Source of the DNA: Desulfarculus sp.
GTDB lineage: Bacteria > Desulfobacterota > Desulfarculia > Desulfarculales > Desulfarculaceae
Assembly (NCBI GenBank): GCA_016218705.1
Contig: JACRDC010000048.1
Coordinates: 1 to 39,553 of the forward strand
Direction: 5' to 3'
DNA: 39,553 nucleotides
The notes below the pieces were generated by a model, which was given only the letters and a program-made list of their open reading frames with translations, had not been told where the DNA came from and did not search any database. Positions 10,323 to 20,313 of the stretch are shown here, piece after piece (position 1 is the first letter of the stretch; each line of letters starts with the position of its first letter). The position numbers and the translations under genes were made by a program.

Positions 10323-10958
10323 ATGCGCCCAATCCTAGCCAGCCTGACGGCCCTGATTTTGCTCCTAGCGTGCGCCCTGCCCGCGCCGGCCCGCGAGGCC
10401 TCCCGCGCCAGCACCATCGAGGCCCTGGAGGCCTGGGAAATGCTGGGCCAGGACCCCAAGGGCACCTTCCTGATAGACGCCCGCAACCGCGCCGAGTACA
10501 TGCTCCTGGGCCACCCGCCCCAGGCCTACAACGTGCCCTGGCGCTTTATGACCAACGACTTCCAGGTGCAGGACGGCCCCTTCCAGGGCGGCAAGGCCCC
10601 CTACACCGGCTATCAGGTCAGCCTGGAGCCCAACCCCGACTTCGTGGGCGTGGTGCAGTCCCTGTTCAAGCCCGAGGACCGCCTGATCGTGCTCAGCAGC
10701 GACGGCGACGAGGGCGCCGACGCGGCCGACGCCCTGGTCAAGGCCGGCTTCAAGCGGGTGTACAACATCCGCCACGGCTTCTGGGGCGATCCCCTGCGCT
10801 CCAAGGAACAGGACAAGCTGGCCGAGCGGCACTCGCCCCACCACGGCCAGCGCGGCCGGGTCAACGGCTGGGTCTACTGGGGCCTGCCCGTGGTCTACGC
10901 CATGGACCCCCGCTACGTCTACCCGCCGGACCTGAAGCGCATGCAGACCTTCAAGTAA
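10323..10958 (+). CDS. Exported rhodanese-fold protein lacking the catalytic Cys
   Basis: A 211-residue protein with an N-terminal export signal (LTALILLLACALPAPA). Cleavage could be by signal peptidase I after APA, or, less likely, at a lipobox LLAC (Cys17). The rest follows a rhodanese domain: FLIDARNRAEYMLLGH, an AYNVPW turn, and LIVLSSDGDEGADAADALVKAGFKRVYNIRHGFWGD. At the active-site loop, where sulfurtransferases have Cys (usually C-x-x-G-x-R/T), this protein has SSDGDEG, so classical thiosulfate sulfurtransferase chemistry is not expected. It may bind ligands or act as a structural domain. GGGGAG lies 7 nt upstream of ATG 10323. Probably monocistronic; a repeat pair follows. Confidence 0.8.
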   Translation: MRPILASLTALILLLACALPAPAREASRASTIEALEAWEMLGQDPKGTFLIDARNRAEYMLLGHPPQAYNVPWRFMTNDFQVQDGPFQGGKAPYTGYQVSLEPNPDFVGVVQSLFKPEDRLIVLSSDGDEGADAADALVKAGFKRVYNIRHGFWGDPLRSKEQDKLAERHSPHHGQRGRVNGWVYWGLPVVYAMDPRYVYPPDLKRMQTFK

Positions 10959-13438: not shown

Positions 13439-13660
13439 ATGGCCAAAGGCGAGATAAAGATCAACCGCGAGAAATGCAAGGGCTGCCAGCTCTGCATGGC
13501 GTTTTGCCCCAAGAAGCGCATCGCGGTGAGCACGGCCCTGAACGAGAAGGGCTATTACCCGGCCGAGTTCTGCCAGGCCGAGGGCAAGGAGGGCTGCACG
13601 GGTTGCACCATGTGCGCCACGGTCTGCCCGGACCTGGCCATAGAGGTGTACCGTGGCTAG
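13439..13660 (+). CDS. vorD: 2-oxoacid:ferredoxin oxidoreductase delta subunit (2[4Fe-4S] ferredoxin)
   Basis: A 73-residue dicluster ferredoxin. Cluster motif I is C13-x2-C16-x2-C19-x3-C23-P; motif II is C53-x2-C56-x2-C59-x3-C63-P. An additional Cys45 lies between them. It passes electrons from the TPP-containing subunit to soluble ferredoxin. ATG 13439 has GGAG six bases upstream; an alternative ATG at 13433 lacks a usable ribosome site. Its stop overlaps the GTG start of the next gene by 8 nt, showing translational coupling. The symbol is given by operon position; a kor (2-oxoglutarate) assignment is also possible. Confidence 0.85.
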   Translation: MAKGEIKINREKCKGCQLCMAFCPKKRIAVSTALNEKGYYPAEFCQAEGKEGCTGCTMCATVCPDLAIEVYRG

Positions 13661-14762
13661 ACAACTGATGCGGGGCAATCATGCGTTGGGCGAGGCGGCG
13701 GTGCGCGCCGGCTGCCGCTACTACTTCGGCTACCCAATCACCCCCCAGAACGAGGTGCCCGAGTACATGTCGGGCCGGCTCTTGGAGGTGGGGGGCACCT
13801 TCGTGCAGGCCGAGAGCGAGCTGGCCAGCATCAACATGGTCATCGGCGCCTCCATGGCCGGCGGCCGGGTGATGACCAGCTCATCTAGCCCGGGCATCAG
13901 CCTCAAGCAGGAGGGCATCAGCTACCTGGCCGGCCTGGAGCTGCCGGCGGTGATCGTCAACATGACCCGTGGCGGCCCCGGCCTGGGCAACATCGCCCCG
14001 GCCCAGAGCGACTATTTCCAGGCCACCCGGGGCGGCGGCCACGGCGACTACCGCTGCATCGTGCTGGCCCCGGCCTCCTGCCAGGAGCTCTGCGACCTGA
14101 CCATCAAGGCCTTCGACCTGGCCGACAAGTACCGCAACCCGGTGATGATCCTGGGCGACGGCATGATCGGCCAGATGATGGAGCCTGTTGAGTTCCCCGA
14201 GATGACCGACCTGGCCAGCCTGCCGGCCAAGGACTGGACGCTCACCGGCGCCGCCGGCCGGCCCCAGCGCACCATCCTCTCGCTCTTGTTGGACCCCAAG
14301 GTCCTGGAGAACCACAACTACAAGCTCGTCCGCAAGTACGACGCCGTGACCCTGGCCGAAACCGACTGGGACACCTACCTCTGCGAGGACGCCCGCCTGG
14401 TCATCGTGGCTTTCGGCACCTCGGCGCGCATCGCCAAGGGCGCCATCAAGCGGGTGCGCGAGATGGGGCTCAAGGTGGGGCTGTTCCGGCCCAAGAGCCT
14501 GTGGCCCTTCCCCACGAAGCCCCTGGAGGAGCTTAGCCGGGTGGTGCGGCATCTGTTGGTCTTCGAGATGAACTCGGGCCAGATGGTGGAGGACGTGCGG
14601 TTGGCGGTCAACGGCCAGGCCCAGGTGCACTTCTACGGCCGGCCCGGCGGCGTGGTGCCCACCCCCGAGGAGATCGCCCACCAGATCAGCCACTACTACT
14701 ACGGCGCCCACCTCAACGAGGACGGCCCCTCTCGCGCGCGCCTGGTGGGAGGACTGTCATGA
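13653..14762 (+). CDS. vorB: 2-oxoacid:ferredoxin oxidoreductase alpha subunit (VorB/KorA-like)
   Basis: A 369-residue subunit of the enzyme that oxidatively decarboxylates a 2-oxoacid (branched-chain 2-oxoisovalerate or 2-oxoglutarate) with CoA, reducing ferredoxin. It carries the pyrimidine-binding domain of the TPP pair ([14 protein letters not shown] at 26-39, with [32 protein letters not shown]). A C-terminal transketolase-like domain follows ([23 protein letters not shown] and [16 protein letters not shown]). Start GTG 13653 has AGAGGTG upstream and overlaps the ferredoxin gene. It overlaps the beta subunit gene by 4 nt (ATGA). The sequence looks most like the VorB group, but substrate cannot be fixed by eye. 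Confidence 0.88.
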
Positions 14763-15526
14763 AGCAGGTATTCAAGACCCCCCAGAGCCTCAAGCCGGCC
14801 ATCTTTCACTACTGCCCCGGCTGCGGCCATTCCATCATCCACCGCCTGGTGGCCGAGGCCATAGACGAACTGGGCATCCGCGAGCGCTGCATCGGCGTGC
14901 CGCCGGCCGGCTGCGCGGTGCTGGCCTACAACTACTTCGACGTGGACATGGGCGAGGCCCCCCACGGCCGGGCCCTGGCCGTGGCCACCGGCATCAAGCG
15001 GGTGCTGCCCGACCGGGTGGTCTTCACCTACCAGGGCGACGGCGACATCGCCGCCATCGGCACCGCCGAGACCATCCACGCCGCCAACCGCGGCGAGAAG
15101 ATCACGGCCATCTTCGTCAACAACGCCACCTACGGCATGACCGGCGGCCAGATGGCCCCCACCACCCTGGTGGGCATGGGCTCCACCACCACCCCCAAGG
15201 GGCGCGTGGCGGCCCGCGACGGGGCGCCCCTGGACCTGACACAGATGCTCGCCGTGGCCAAGGGCAGCGTGTACCTGGAGCGGGTGACGGTCAACTCGCC
15301 CCAGGCCATCAAGAAGGCCGGCAAGGCCATCAAGAAGGCCTTCCAGGTGCAACTTGACGGCCTGGGCTTCGCCCTGGTGGAGGTGCTCTCGCCCTGCCCC
15401 ACCAACTGGAAGATGAGCCCCGTGGACTCCTTCAAGTGGATTGACAGCACCATGGCCCAGGTCTTCCCCCTGGGAGTCATCAAGGACGAGACCGGCTACC
15501 AGGAAGCCAAGGGGGGAGGCGAATAA
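14759..15526 (+). CDS. vorA: 2-oxoacid:ferredoxin oxidoreductase beta subunit (TPP-binding)
   Basis: A 255-residue catalytic beta subunit. It has the Fe-S/TPP region CPGCGH at 19-24, the TPP/Mg motif GDGD (93-96) ending in NN (121-122), and [16 protein letters not shown]. It binds thiamine diphosphate with the alpha subunit and performs decarboxylation. The ATG overlaps the alpha stop by 4 nt and the TAA overlaps the next ATG by 1 nt. Length is normal for the two-subunit-type VorA/KorB. Confidence 0.88.
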
Positions 15527-16098
15527 TGACCATCAAGAGCGTATTCGCCGGCTTCGGCGGCCAAGGCGTGCTGATGATGGGCTACATGCTGGCCCTGACC
15601 GCCATGCGCCAGGGCAAGAACGTCACCTACCTGCCCTCCTACGGGGCCGAGGTGCGCGGCGGCACGGCCAACTGCACGGTGGTGGTCAGCGACGACGAGA
15701 TCGCCAGCCCCGTGGCCAGTAGCCCCGACATCGCCGTGGTGATGAACAACCCCAGCCTCTTGAAGTATGCCAACCTGGTGCGCCCCGGGGGCATCATGCT
15801 GGTCAACAGCACCCTGGTGGGCAGCGTGGTCAACCGCCAGGACCTTAACGTGGTCAAGGTGCCGGCCACCGACCTGGCCCACGAGTTGGGCGAGGACCGT
15901 TCGGCCAACGTGGTGATGATGGGCGCTTTCGCCCAGGCCACCGGGGTCTTGAGCTTGGAGGCCTTCTCCGAGGCCCTGGCCGAGACCAATCTGGGCAAAA
16001 AGCCCAAGGTCCTGGAGTTGAATCGCCACGCCCTGCAAGTCGGCGCCGACAGCGCCCGCCAGGCCCTGGAGGCCGCCAGGAGCGCCGCGTCAAAATAG
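15526..16098 (+). CDS. vorC: 2-oxoacid:ferredoxin oxidoreductase gamma subunit
   Basis: A 190-residue gamma subunit typical of pyruvate/2-oxoacid:ferredoxin oxidoreductases. It has an N-terminal GFGGQGVLMMG loop (9-19), then SYGAEVRGGTANCTVVVSD, both family hallmarks, and the usual C-terminal helices. It contributes to CoA binding and assembly of the complex. It shares one base with the beta gene stop and is the last core gene of the operon; the ACT gene follows after 100 nt. Confidence 0.88.
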   Translation: MTIKSVFAGFGGQGVLMMGYMLALTAMRQGKNVTYLPSYGAEVRGGTANCTVVVSDDEIASPVASSPDIAVVMNNPSLLKYANLVRPGGIMLVNSTLVGSVVNRQDLNVVKVPATDLAHELGEDRSANVVMMGAFAQATGVLSLEAFSEALAETNLGKKPKVLELNRHALQVGADSARQALEAARSAASK

Positions 16099-16198
16099 CG
16101 AGGCACCGCCCAGCGTAGCCGGGACGGCCAGCCCACCGGCAGCGCCACAAGGGGAAAAGGACTTTAGGCTCACAAAGCCCTAGCAAGGAGAAGCCGGC

Positions 16199-16636
16199 AT
16201 GACCGTCAAGCAGATTTGCATAAGCATGGCCAACCAGCCCGGCCAACTGGCCAAGGTCAGCGAGCTCATGGGCGAGGCGGGCGTCAACATCATCGCCCTG
16301 TTCGTCACCACCTCCACCCCGGCCGGCGAGGGCCTTTTGTACTTCGTGCCCGACAACCCGGACAAGGCGGCCAACATTCTGGCCAGCCAGGGCCTGGAGG
16401 CCAAGATCAACGAAGTGATCGCCGCCGAGACCCCCCACCACGCCGGCGGCCTGCTGGCCGTGCTCAACCCCTTGAAGCGCGCCGGGGTCAACCTGGAATA
16501 CCTCTACCCGGCCATCCAGACTGGCGAGGCCACCATTCTCATCCTGGGGGTGGGACCGCAGCAGATCGGCCAGGCCGTGGAGGCCTTGAAGAAAGACTGG
16601 ATCCGTCTCTTCGGCGAAGAACTCTACAACATGTAA
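16199..16636 (+). CDS. Tandem ACT-domain protein, probably amino-acid binding
   Basis: A 145-residue protein with two ACT-type beta-alpha-beta-beta-alpha-beta units. Unit 1 is about 1-70 (VKQICISMANQPGQLAKVSELMGEAGVNIIAL). Unit 2 is about 75-145 (HHAGGLLAVLNPLKRAGVNLEYLYPA). The DQPGxL-like loop (NQPGQLAKV) is where ACT domains bind amino acids. A strong AAGGAG lies upstream of ATG 16199. Stand-alone ACT proteins often sit beside indolepyruvate or 2-oxoacid ferredoxin oxidoreductase genes in anaerobes; sensing a branched-chain or aromatic amino acid is a reasonable inference. It is followed by a terminator. Confidence 0.82.
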   Translation: MTVKQICISMANQPGQLAKVSELMGEAGVNIIALFVTTSTPAGEGLLYFVPDNPDKAANILASQGLEAKINEVIAAETPHHAGGLLAVLNPLKRAGVNLEYLYPAIQTGEATILILGVGPQQIGQAVEALKKDWIRLFGEELYNM

Positions 16637-16711: not shown

Positions 16712-17524
16712 CTACAGGTTGGTGGTCTCCTCGAAGAGCCGGCCCAGGTCCAATAGGAGCACCATGGCCCCGCCCTCCTGGCGCCGGCCGATGCGGCAGA
16801 CCAGGTTGGTGGCCAGGCCGGCCAGCCCGCCCCTCATCTCTTCCACGCTGCCTGGCTGCAGTTCCTCAACGGCGTCCACGGCGTCCACGGTCACGGCCAG
16901 GAACCGCCCCTGGCGCTGGGTCACCAGGGCGATCTCGGTTTGGCTGTTGCGCACGATGTCGCGCACCTCGCCGAACAGGGCCACCAACTTGCCCAGGGTG
17001 GTGTCGCGGGTGCGGTCTATGAGGGCCAGGGCGGCCTCGTGTTCCTTGCGGGCCATGAGATCAATAACCTCTTTGCCCACCTGATGAACGCGTTGATGGG
17101 GAGCGTCGAACTTGAGCAGGTGGCCCGACAGGCGCAGGTCGTCGGTCGAGAAGGCGTCATACCATTTGCCAAAGGCGCACTGGTGGGGGTCGGTGGTCAG
17201 GCGGAAGGACCGCCGCTCGCGCACGCTGGCCTCCAGCTCGGCCAGCCAGTTCTTGTGGTCCTGCTCGCGCTGTTCCAGCATACGCACCAGGCTGTCCTTG
17301 TCGGCGCGGGAGGTGGCCATGCCCAGGCGGCTACGCAGGTCCACCAAAGGCATTACCTGGCCGCGCAGGTTTATCATGCCGCGCACGTAGTCCGGGGCCT
17401 GGGGCAGGACGGTGACCTCGGGCACCACCAGCATTTCGTAGGTGTCCTCCACGGGCAGGCCAAAGAACTGGCCTTGCAGTCTGAAGATGACCCAGGAGGT
17501 AGCGGCGGGGGCAGGCTGGGACAT
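16712..17524 (-). CDS. CheW-type chemotaxis coupling protein with inserted CZB zinc domain
   Basis: A 270-residue protein. Residues 9-72 are the first half of a CheW fold (WVIFRLQGQFFGLPVEDTYEM, RGMINLRGQVMPLVDLRSRLG). Residues about 85-165 form a CZB (chemoreceptor zinc-binding) domain with H90 (DHKNWL), C116 in the core motif CAFGKWY (116-122), and H143 and H147 (APHQRVHQVG). Residues about 195-270 complete CheW (TEIALVTQRQGRFLAVTVDAVDAV). CZB domains bind zinc through 3-His/1-Cys and respond to zinc or oxidants such as HOCl. CheW couples receptors to the CheA kinase, so this may be a sensing coupler. No other chemotaxis gene is in the window. Confidence 0.88.
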   Translation of the reverse strand: MSQPAPAATSWVIFRLQGQFFGLPVEDTYEMLVVPEVTVLPQAPDYVRGMINLRGQVMPLVDLRSRLGMATSRADKDSLVRMLEQREQDHKNWLAELEASVRERRSFRLTTDPHQCAFGKWYDAFSTDDLRLSGHLLKFDAPHQRVHQVGKEVIDLMARKEHEAALALIDRTRDTTLGKLVALFGEVRDIVRNSQTEIALVTQRQGRFLAVTVDAVDAVEELQPGSVEEMRGGLAGLATNLVCRIGRRQEGGAMVLLLDLGRLFEETTNL

Positions 17525-17582: not shown

Positions 17583-17753
17583 TCACCACCAGCTTACCAC
17601 CTGTTCATGGCTGAAGATGAGCTCCACCAGCCGGGCGTAGTCCTGGTCCTGGTAAAGGTCATAGCGCGTGACCTCGCGGCCCTGGCCGCAGGCCTCCATC
17701 AAGAGCAGGGTGAGAGCGTCGGGCGGGCTCTTGACTATCTGCAACTGCTTCAT
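17583..17753 (-). CDS. Small DsrH/TusB-like protein, 56 residues
   Basis: A 56-residue protein beginning MKQLQIVKSPPDALTLLLME, with GGGAGGCG just upstream of ATG 17753. The opening (I-V-x-SP...) and position after two DsrE-like proteins suggest a short member of the DsrH/TusB group of sulfur-relay proteins, but it is shorter than the usual ~95 residues and has a single Cys (Cys22). It ends with VVSWW. It is the last gene of the minus-strand operon starting at 20276; 58 nt separate it from the CheW/CZB gene. Confidence 0.5.
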   Translation of the reverse strand: MKQLQIVKSPPDALTLLLMEACGQGREVTRYDLYQDQDYARLVELIFSHEQVVSWW

Positions 17754-17776
17754 CAGGCGCCTCCCGCCGGCCCAGC

Positions 17777-18085
17777 CTAGAAGGGTATCACCAGGCCGTA
17801 GCCTGGCAAGCGCGCGGCCATCCGCTCCAGGCTGGCGTGGGTCAGGAACTGGTAGCGCTCGGCGTCGGCCGGGTTGTCGGTGAAGCATTGGCCATCCAGG
17901 TCGGCCAGCAGCTCCAGGCTGTCCTGGAAGTCCCCGGAGGTCTTGCCAGCGGGCAATTTCACGGGCGCGCCGATGAAATAGCAATCCGCCACAAGGTTCT
18001 CCACCATCAGACCCAGGGCCGAGCGCAGGCCCTCCCAGGCGTCGCTTGGCTCACGTATCAAGACGGCCACCCTGCTCACCCGCAT
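17777..18085 (-). CDS. DsrE/DsrF-like small protein
   Basis: A 102-residue soluble alpha/beta protein of the DsrE/DsrF-like fold: the N-terminal strand VSRVAVLIREPSD, then GLRSALGLMVENLVADCYFIGAPV as in the GLR...LG region of this superfamily. It contains two Cys (DCYF and GQCF), either of which could carry persulfide if it is a sulfur-relay protein. Start ATG 18085 has a strong AGGAGG at 7 nt. It begins 11 nt after the preceding DsrE-like gene stop. Assignment is by pattern only. Confidence 0.6.
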   Translation of the reverse strand: MRVSRVAVLIREPSDAWEGLRSALGLMVENLVADCYFIGAPVKLPAGKTSGDFQDSLELLADLDGQCFTDNPADAERYQFLTHASLERMAARLPGYGLVIPF

Positions 18086-18096
18086 GGCAGGTCCTC

Positions 18097-18402
18097 CTAC
18101 AGCACGATGTAGCGGTCGCAGCCGGCGATCATGGCGGCGTGGCGGGCCTGGCTGGCGAAGTCTTCCTCCGCCACCCCCGGCACGGGGCGCCGAAGCCCCC
18201 AAGCCGAGAAGTTGACCTGGCACAGGCTCACCAGGGCCAGGCCCTCCAGTTGGGCAAAGGCCGGTTCCCGGGTCAGCAGCACCCCCCGGTGGGTGAGGAA
18301 AACCGTCAACTCCTTGCCGGCCTGGTGGGCGGCGCGGGCGATGCCCAGCAGGTGGTCAAGGTGCCGGTCCGAGGAAACGAAGATGCCCAGCTTACCGCTC
18401 AT
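18097..18402 (-). CDS. DsrE-like small protein
   Basis: A 101-residue protein with a DsrE-type fold. The strand KLGIFVSSDRHLDHLLGIARAAHQAGKE leads to LTVFLTHRGVLL, then LEGLALVSLCQVNFSAWGL, where Cys is placed like the conserved persulfide Cys of DsrE/TusD-like proteins. A second Cys is near the end (AGCDRYIVL). Its ATG overlaps the TGA of the heparinase-like gene (ATGA, 4 nt), so the two are translationally coupled. With the next two small genes it makes a DsrE/F/H-like set, unusual because no dsrAB or tus genes are nearby. Confidence 0.65.
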   Translation of the reverse strand: MSGKLGIFVSSDRHLDHLLGIARAAHQAGKELTVFLTHRGVLLTREPAFAQLEGLALVSLCQVNFSAWGLRRPVPGVAEEDFASQARHAAMIAGCDRYIVL

Positions 18403-20276
18403 GCGCACTCCCCCGGCCCCTGAGCCGGGGATGCCAGGGCCAGCATGGTGGTCAGGCGGGCGTTGCCCTCCACCAGGGCCTGGATGCGCACCACCGGCGC
18501 CGGCACCACCTGCCCCAGGCGGGTGGCCAGCCAGCCCAGGGTGGGGTCGCTGCGCCCCAGGAAGAGGCTGACGTGGGCCTTGGGCTCTGGCCGCAGAAAG
18601 GCCCGGCCAAAGCCACCCCGCAAAAGCAGCGATCCGTCGGCCAGGGCCTGCACCTGGCAGTCCACGGGCAGGCGGAAGAACACCTCGCACAGGTGCCGGC
18701 CCTTGGCCTGCACCTGGTCCACGATGTTGACCAAGCCCCGCGCCAGGTCAAGATACACCCGCCGGCGTAGCCGCACGGGGTCCTTTAAGAAGGCGTAGCC
18801 GTCGTGGCTGGCGGCCAGGAAGCGGTAACGGGCGCCGCTTTGCAGGCCCTCCAGGACCACGCTCCCGCCCCGGGGCTCGGCCTCGTCAATGCGCGCGGCG
18901 TTGTGGGCCGCCCGCGCCCGCAGGTGGGGGGCCAGGGGTCCGCTGCCGGCTGGCCCGGGCGGCAGCAGAAAGCCCTGGCCGTCCAGGCAGAGGGACAGGG
19001 ACAGGGCCGCGGCCGGGTCTTGTCCGGCCCCCAGGACCAGGGCCGCGCCCACCTTGTGGCCGGCCATCTCGGCGGCCAGAACCCCCAGGCCAACTCCGGG
19101 GGCCTCCAGGGGGGCCGGGGCCGGCCCGCCGGCCAAGAGACGCAGCTTCTGGCCGGCCTCGGGACCGTGGAGCCAATAGAGACGCTCGTCCACCTGGCGC
19201 GGGCCACGCAGCTCCGGGGCGCTCAATAGCACGGCGGCCAGGTTGGCCGGCCCGCTGAACCATGATTCCGGCGCGGGGTCAAAGCCCAGCACCGCGCCGG
19301 CCGGTCCCTGCCCCCAGTAGGCGCCGGCCCCCCAGGGCGGGGCCAAGGCGCGGCACAGGCCGGCCAGCTTGTGCAGCCCGGCCACCACCCCCGGCATCTC
19401 CAGCTTGAGGTTGGCGCCGGTCCACAGGCCCAGGCCGGCCCACTCGCAGGCCTCCGCGGCCAGGGCGGTGGCCTCCAGGGGGCCATCCTGCCAGGCGGCC
19501 ATGAGGGCCGGCCCCAGGCAGGCCGCGGCCAGGGGCTGCCACTGGGCCACTCCCTCCATGAAGGGCAGGCCGGCGCAGAACATCAAGAGGGCCGCCGCCG
19601 GTCCCACTAGGCCGGCGCCGGGCGCGGCCCGGCCCTGCTCCAGTTCGGCGGCCAGGGCCTGGGCCATGAGCCATAGATGCAGCGCCACCCTGGCGGTCAG
19701 CTCGGGAGCCTGGGTCAGGTCCTCGCCCATGAAGCGCAGGCCCCACAGCCAGTTGGCCAGGCGTAGGGCGATGATCCGGCCACCCTGCCAGCCTGGCCCC
19801 AACAGCGGGGGGTTGGCCGCGATGAAGTCCTCCAGGGACTGCCAGGCGGCGCTGGCCAGGTCATCGCCGGGCGCCAGGAGGTGGGCCCGGGCCAGGCGCA
19901 AAAAGACCTGGCCGCTTATCCAGGGCCAAAGGGCCGCCGTTTCCTCGGGGCTCAAGCGCATTTGGCTGGCCGGCACCGGCCCTCCGGGTGGCGGGGGCAA
20001 CCGCCGGGAGGCCTCCTGGCGGGCCTGCTCCATCAGGGCCGGGGCGTCGCAGAAGCGCGCCAAGGCCCGGCGCTCCCCCGGCCCCAACCGAAGCGGCAAC
20101 CCGCGTTCCAGTTCGCTGGCCAGGCGGCTGGCCAGGCCCTGGGGCTGGCGGGCGTACCCGGTCTGCTTGAGCAGTGATTCCATGGCCTTGGCCCCGCCAA
20201 GTTCCAGGGATACCTGGGCGGCGGTCTTGGCCCCGGCCAGGCGCCAGAGAAGTCCCTTGGGTTCCAAGTTGTCCAT
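18399..20276 (-). CDS. Heparinase II/III-like protein, probably degenerate
   Basis: A 625-residue protein. The N-terminal ~330 residues are helical and Ala/Leu/Trp-rich (NWLWGLRFMGEDL) like the alpha/alpha toroid of heparinase II/III-type lyases. The C-terminal ~280 residues form a beta-rich domain with landmarks of the Hepar_II_III sandwich (GSGPLAPHLRARAAHNAARIDE, about 470-490; GARYRFLAASHDGYAF). Where active lyases usually have GHxHxD, this one has GQDPAAALSLSL, so activity on polysaccharide is doubtful. No signal peptide is seen, unlike most periplasmic lyases. ATG 20276 was chosen; a TTG at 20324 is possible. It overlaps the DsrE-like gene by 4 nt, tying a sugar-lyase fold to sulfur-relay-like proteins. 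Confidence 0.65.
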   Translation of the reverse strand: MDNLEPKGLLWRLAGAKTAAQVSLELGGAKAMESLLKQTGYARQPQGLASRLASELERGLPLRLGPGERRALARFCDAPALMEQARQEASRRLPPPPGGPVPASQMRLSPEETAALWPWISGQVFLRLARAHLLAPGDDLASAAWQSLEDFIAANPPLLGPGWQGGRIIALRLANWLWGLRFMGEDLTQAPELTARVALHLWLMAQALAAELEQGRAAPGAGLVGPAAALLMFCAGLPFMEGVAQWQPLAAACLGPALMAAWQDGPLEATALAAEACEWAGLGLWTGANLKLEMPGVVAGLHKLAGLCRALAPPWGAGAYWGQGPAGAVLGFDPAPESWFSGPANLAAVLLSAPELRGPRQVDERLYWLHGPEAGQKLRLLAGGPAPAPLEAPGVGLGVLAAEMAGHKVGAALVLGAGQDPAAALSLSLCLDGQGFLLPPGPAGSGPLAPHLRARAAHNAARIDEAEPRGGSVVLEGLQSGARYRFLAASHDGYAFLKDPVRLRRRVYLDLARGLVNIVDQVQAKGRHLCEVFFRLPVDCQVQALADGSLLLRGGFGRAFLRPEPKAHVSLFLGRSDPTLGWLATRLGQVVPAPVVRIQALVEGNARLTTMLALASPAQGPGECA

Positions 20277-20284
20277 GACCCTGG

Positions 20285-20313
20285 ATAATAACACAGCGAA
20301 CCGCCCGTACCAA
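20285..20313 (-). promoter_or_regulatory. Candidate promoter of the heparinase-like/DsrE-like operon
   Basis: On the minus strand TTGGTA (20313-20308, 4/6), a 17-nt spacer and TATTAT (20290-20285, 5/6). Transcription would start at about 20278, almost on ATG 20276, so the mRNA may be nearly leaderless. The -35 box overlaps the edge of a dispersed palindrome. Confidence 0.4.

Follow-up and report, generated by a model that had tools for sequence, protein, structure and literature searches.

The window, a 39.6-kb contig (39,553 nucleotides) of a 4.2-Mb Desulfarculus sp. genome that is called G000 in our comparisons, carries on its minus strand a gene for a heparinase II/III-like protein followed by three small genes. 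The features of this unit, with the grounds for each, are the following.

18399..20276, minus strand: heparinase II/III-like protein of 625 aa (PF07940 at 35 bits, PL12 profile matches, catalytic columns, a clade of its own)
18097..18402, minus strand: probable DsrE subunit of DsrEFH type II, 101 aa, with Cys61 as the likely sulfur-carrying residue (invariant Cys61, PF02635 matches in relatives, model comparison)
17777..18085, minus strand: probable DsrF subunit of DsrEFH type II, 102 aa (position, alignment, a homologue beside DsrE at each of 21 loci outside the family)
17583..17753, minus strand: probable DsrH subunit of DsrEFH type II, 56 aa, with a TusB/DsrH-like C-terminal end (sub-cutoff TIGR03011 match, alignment, a homologue at 20 of those 21 loci)
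20285..20313, minus strand: promoter-like site 5' of the heparinase-like gene (a pattern match only: 9 of the 12 consensus positions agree, with an expectation of 0.0 such sites in shuffled sequence)

The first-pass annotation had described these as four linked genes, the heparinase-like gene and DsrE overlapping by 4 nt and the gaps being 11 nt between DsrE and DsrF and 23 nt between DsrF and DsrH, and this is borne out by the coordinates and by a gene model trained on the codon usage of the window, which picks all four genes. The promoter-like site directly precedes the heparinase-like gene, and the minus strand shows none within the four-gene unit; the heparinase-like gene and the trio are probably under one promoter in this species. 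Neither TusA nor YeeE adjoins the trio in the window. The surroundings include a CheW protein with a CZB zinc-binding domain (16712-17524), ferredoxin and 2-oxoacid:ferredoxin oxidoreductase genes and then an ACT-domain-pair protein (13439-16636), and a rhodanese-domain protein (10323-10958) about 6.6 kb from the trio.

By its sequence the 625-aa protein is a member of the PL12/Hepar_II_III fold group. The match to Pfam Hepar_II_III_C (PF07940) is well above the cutoff of 24 bits, and a profile search against PL12 heparinase III structures (4fnv, E 5.6e-9; 5jmd, E 3.1e-8) extended over the helical region as well as the C-terminal sheet domain, in agreement with the fold first proposed for this protein. 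The predicted model had a pLDDT of 37.6 and was unusable. A search of the genome contigs with the window's heparinase-like protein alone gave one relative. The protein is related to heparinase-like proteins of glycosyltransferase clusters, and four relatives outside the family (G020, G105, G282 and G215) adjoin glycosyltransferase genes. It differs from the PL12 enzymes in that it lies outside a glycan locus, has no signal peptide that could be seen by eye, and has lost the catalytic Asn, Tyr and His. To assign these columns we used the number of the catalytic His in 4fnv and the triad numbering of HepIII. The alignment held 17 homologues, ten rows from the clade of the window's protein and seven from outside it; the clade itself had a support of 100/100 in a tree of 15 rows. 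All seven outside rows keep Asn, Tyr and the HxH motif. Counting only the clade rows that have a letter at the column in question, Tyr is kept in none of nine, the second His of HxH in none of nine, the first His in none of seven, and Asn in one of seven, that of G011. The window's protein has Ala and Leu at the Asn and Tyr columns and Gln/Pro at the His columns, which agrees with the degraded catalytic region that had been noticed at first sight. According to PMC11848413, the Tyr is equivalent across PL12, PL21 and PL33, and Asn/Tyr/His make up the catalytic set of PL33. Since the clade is without the catalytic Tyr and His, its heparinase-like protein is very probably not a lyase, as judged from these columns, and calling the neighbour of the trio a heparinase misleads, since it has lost the active site. 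Between G000 and G003, with 434 codons compared, its dN/dS is 0.255, close to that of Ppx (0.298), and the dead heparinase-like protein is therefore under selection. Our guess is that it has a binding or scaffold role.

The three small genes are easily overlooked, because searches with single proteins name them only below threshold. The DsrE gene reached 13.4 bits against PF02635 (cutoff 22.7), the DsrH gene 14.1 bits against TIGR03011, the TusB model (cutoff 49.2), and the DsrF gene had no credible family match in such searches. Among relatives, 17 of 20 DsrE homologues match PF02635 at E<=0.1, the best at 1.6e-4, and Cys61 of DsrE does not vary among the 20 that were aligned. E. coli TusBCD is a three-subunit relay with its catalytic cysteine in the D/E subunit. 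The trio is alike in both respects, but hhalign comparisons with E. coli TusD, TusC and TusB gave no significant match, and the third subunit has 56 aa against 95. Profiles of DsrE, DsrF and DsrH, run against PDB sequences, matched nothing that was both significant and credible; there was a weak row for DsrE (3pnx, E 0.16), and rows for interferon and protein A are taken as chance. Foldseek returned nothing at E<=0.001 for the predicted DsrE model. With VIA-align the same model gave Z 8.0 to 2qs7 and Z 7.7 to 3mc3, both DsrE/F-like, and Z 7.1 to the DsrEFH chain 2hy5_B; two DsrE/DsrF-like chains thus rank first, with unrelated folds scoring close behind, and a Z of 7-8 is also reached by unrelated alpha/beta folds. 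The predicted fold is compatible with the DsrE family but not decisive. The assignments of DsrE and DsrH, sub-threshold when taken alone, are supported by synteny and alignments, and the earlier description of a DsrE/DsrH-like trio thereby gains the backing that the single-protein scores did not give it. No DsrE relatives were found on the viral contigs searched.

The wider neighbourhood of the trio is that of a sulfur relay. DsrE is present in 74 of the 395 genomes of the phylum. Among the loci listed by that phylum-wide search, the 21 outside the family (L137-L157) were examined, and of these DsrF is found in 21, DsrH in 20, TusA in 16 and YeeE in 12; the one locus without DsrH runs off its contig. 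The order YeeE-TusA-DsrE-DsrF-DsrH occurs at L065 and L067, in two relatives outside the family. In G000, dsrA scores 586 bits, over the cutoff, on contig C10, with a second, weaker match directly after it, DsrC scores 111 bits, and a TusA gene is present; no full-length YeeE was found in G000, G002 or G003. The first-pass annotation had remarked that such trios normally go with dsrAB, tus or tRNA thiolation genes and not with polysaccharide lyases. The genome has dsrA and dsrC, and a heparinase lies within 1.5 kb of the trio at none of the 21 loci outside the family.

A sulfur transferase of sulfate-reducing bacteria, named DsrEFH type II, was described in 2026 (PMC13293266). In that paper, TusA of cable bacteria hands sulfur to Cys67 of DsrE, and DsrEFH type II hands sulfur to DsrC in vitro; the complex is reported with a YTD cluster, which also figures in PMC12998232, its features include synteny with tusA and yeeE and co-occurrence with reductive dsrAB and dsrC, and membership is assigned by the HMMs of the authors at a score above 80 bits. 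The trio of the window is alike in having three small syntenic subunits, DsrE-DsrF-DsrH, a conserved cysteine in DsrE, and co-occurrence with dsrA and dsrC, and the homologous trio of relatives adjoins TusA and YeeE. It is unlike in that the trio of G000 lies away from TusA and YeeE, behind a heparinase-like gene, in a genome with no full-length YeeE. The likeness to the complex of the cable bacteria is one of synteny, cysteine and co-occurrence, and Cys61 would be the counterpart of the published Cys67 by its position. We count against the assignment that the curated DsrE and TusB models match below cutoff, and likewise the hhalign comparisons with the E. coli Tus proteins, the Z values of the DsrE model and the missing full-length YeeE of G000, G002 and G003. 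The dN/dS values of the three trio genes between G000 and G003 (0.74, 0.44 and 0.57, from short genes) are above that of the heparinase-like gene, a possible sign of relaxed constraint. On comparative grounds, the best reading of the trio is as a new member of the described sulfur-transfer complex DsrEFH type II. A TusA protein would then take up sulfur that enters the cytoplasm and bring it to Cys61 of DsrE, from where the heterotrimer of DsrEFH type II would hand it to DsrC, the protein that serves dissimilatory sulfite reductase as substrate. The heparinase-fold protein would be separate, cytosolic and catalytically dead, no sugar lyase, and dispensable for the relay. We give this reading as a whole, a DsrEFH type II complex relaying from TusA over DsrE to DsrC beside a dead neighbour that it does not require, a probability of roughly three in four. 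A trio that falls below the Pfam and NCBIfam cutoffs would thus be placed in a described complex, which adds to the evidence for DsrEFH type II in many sulfate reducers.

An acceptor of another kind had also been considered. It was first proposed, as one example, that the trio transfers persulfide to an acceptor yet to be named; the trio matches a described complex with DsrC as its acceptor, and the genome has both dsrA and dsrC. The trio is in the fold group of TusBCD and might accordingly work in tRNA thiolation, or it might serve some other acceptor, for instance a LarE-type enzyme: in the distant genome G036 (L068:7608-8432) a gene that is LarE-like by inspection lies beside a DsrE/DsrF pair, although Pfam finds there only NAD_synthase, Asn_synthase and QueC. 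We regard both as very improbable, since the trio goes with dsrA and dsrC in the family, all of them are missing together in G011, and the type II complex gave its sulfur to DsrC in vitro (PMC13293266).

How tightly the heparinase-like gene belongs to the DsrEFH type II trio can be judged from the 20 genomes of the family sample. Heparinase orthologues occur in 10 and the trio in 18, and they stand side by side in 8 (G000, G002, G003, G006, G007, G009, G010 and G013), always in the order heparinase-like gene, DsrE, DsrF, DsrH, which supports the expectation that the order would be conserved in relatives. These counts combine the output of a simple gene caller with sequence matches. The heparinase of G003 was matched in two pieces in different frames, and those of G004 and G013 each lie on two contigs; G001, G003, G004, G005, G010 and G013 are incomplete (54-86%), which makes absences there weak, and weak heparinase matches in G015 and G017 (E 1e-4 to 1e-5) were left out of the orthologue counts. 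The 4-nt overlap of the window is common only to G000 and its closest relative, G003. In G006 the overlap is 38 nt, and in G002, G007, G009, G010 and G013 heparinase and DsrE are separated by a gap of 97-330 nt, in which G002 has a terminator-like hairpin and G007 a promoter-like site. Ten of the 18 trio genomes have no heparinase beside the trio, among them all eight of genus g4, where the trio lies at the same site between Ppx and guaB without heparinase in seven, and with two other genes intervening in the eighth. Conversely, heparinase is found without an adjoining trio in G004, where YeeE and TusA follow it, and in G011, where the site reads Ppx, heparinase and a CheW-like gene and the trio is missing. 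In G011 neither dsrA, DsrC and TusA nor the trio could be matched, and YeeE has a sub-cutoff match only (a single one to PF04143, E 4.5e-4). We considered whether heparinase in G011 is a pseudogene decaying after the loss of sulfur metabolism and dropped this, its TAA being a natural stop; the TGA in G010 falls outside the gene body. An obligate four-gene system was likewise rejected, because at one and the same locus either heparinase or the trio can be found alone. The linkage is not obligatory. Heparinase adjoins Ppx in 8 of its 10 genomes just as it adjoins the trio in 8 of 10; the neighbourhood of the pseudo-lyase is partly shared history. G009 and G010 carry the heparinase-trio unit intact and away from Ppx, which lies on another contig, and this co-retention away from the ancestral site speaks for some coupling, against pure accident.

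The pattern bears on two further explanations. One is a four-gene system for sulfated sugars, in which the lyase cuts sulfated glycans and the trio takes the released sulfur, as had been suggested from the linkage. Linkage and fold family are all that favour it, and we find it hardly credible: the catalytic Asn, Tyr and His are lost, no signal peptide is seen by eye, Pfam recognises neither a sulfatase nor a sulfotransferase in the window's 37 called genes, and heparinase and trio occur apart at the same site. Relays of the DsrEFH/Tus kind carry sulfane sulfur rather than sulfate esters. The pathway was rejected because the trio is of a described relay type, the active-site residues of the heparinase are lost, and heparinase occurs in only half of the related species. 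Of the undescribed system that the first-pass annotation had envisaged, the sulfur-relay-like trio, the degenerate heparinase-like protein and the conserved order remain, and the novelty of the trio does not, it being DsrEFH type II as best read; what is undescribed is the pseudo-lyase next to it.

The other explanation is that the dead heparinase-like protein is a dedicated, co-transcribed partner of DsrEFH type II in the family, for example a docking scaffold for TusA or DsrC, or a regulator. It adjoins the trio in the same order in 8 of 20 genomes, its gene overlaps DsrE in G000, G003 and G006, G009 and G010 have kept it and the trio together, and in G004 it adjoins YeeE and TusA instead. 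We nevertheless consider such a partnership unlikely, since 10 of 18 trio genomes, including all of genus g4, do without it beside the trio, the gene is intact in G011, which is without trio, dsrA, dsrC, TusA or an over-cutoff YeeE, and its attachment to Ppx is as frequent. The preferred reading keeps the relay and its neighbour separate. It is a rather doubtful hypothesis that an inactive lyase fold was recruited in Desulfarculus-like bacteria to hold, for example, TusA, DsrEFH and DsrC together, having been kept with the trio in at least two genomes off the ancestral site. None of the titles listed in literature searches joined heparinase to this trio. If the dead lyase should prove to be a relay partner, dissimilatory sulfur metabolism would have an accessory protein of a new kind.

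Some minor observations concern other DsrE-like genes and neighbours in the family. In G009 a second DsrE/DsrF pair (L052:7997-8661, contig C222) lies a few kb from dsrAB and adjoins a cysteine-rich (CCG, HdrB-like) gene, and in G001 (L045:2733-5066) a CCG/4Fe-4S (HdrD-like) gene lies immediately 5' of the trio and tusA 3' of it. In G000 itself there is a weak DsrE match (E 3.6e-5) within a 561-aa open frame at G000:C78:71641-71844.
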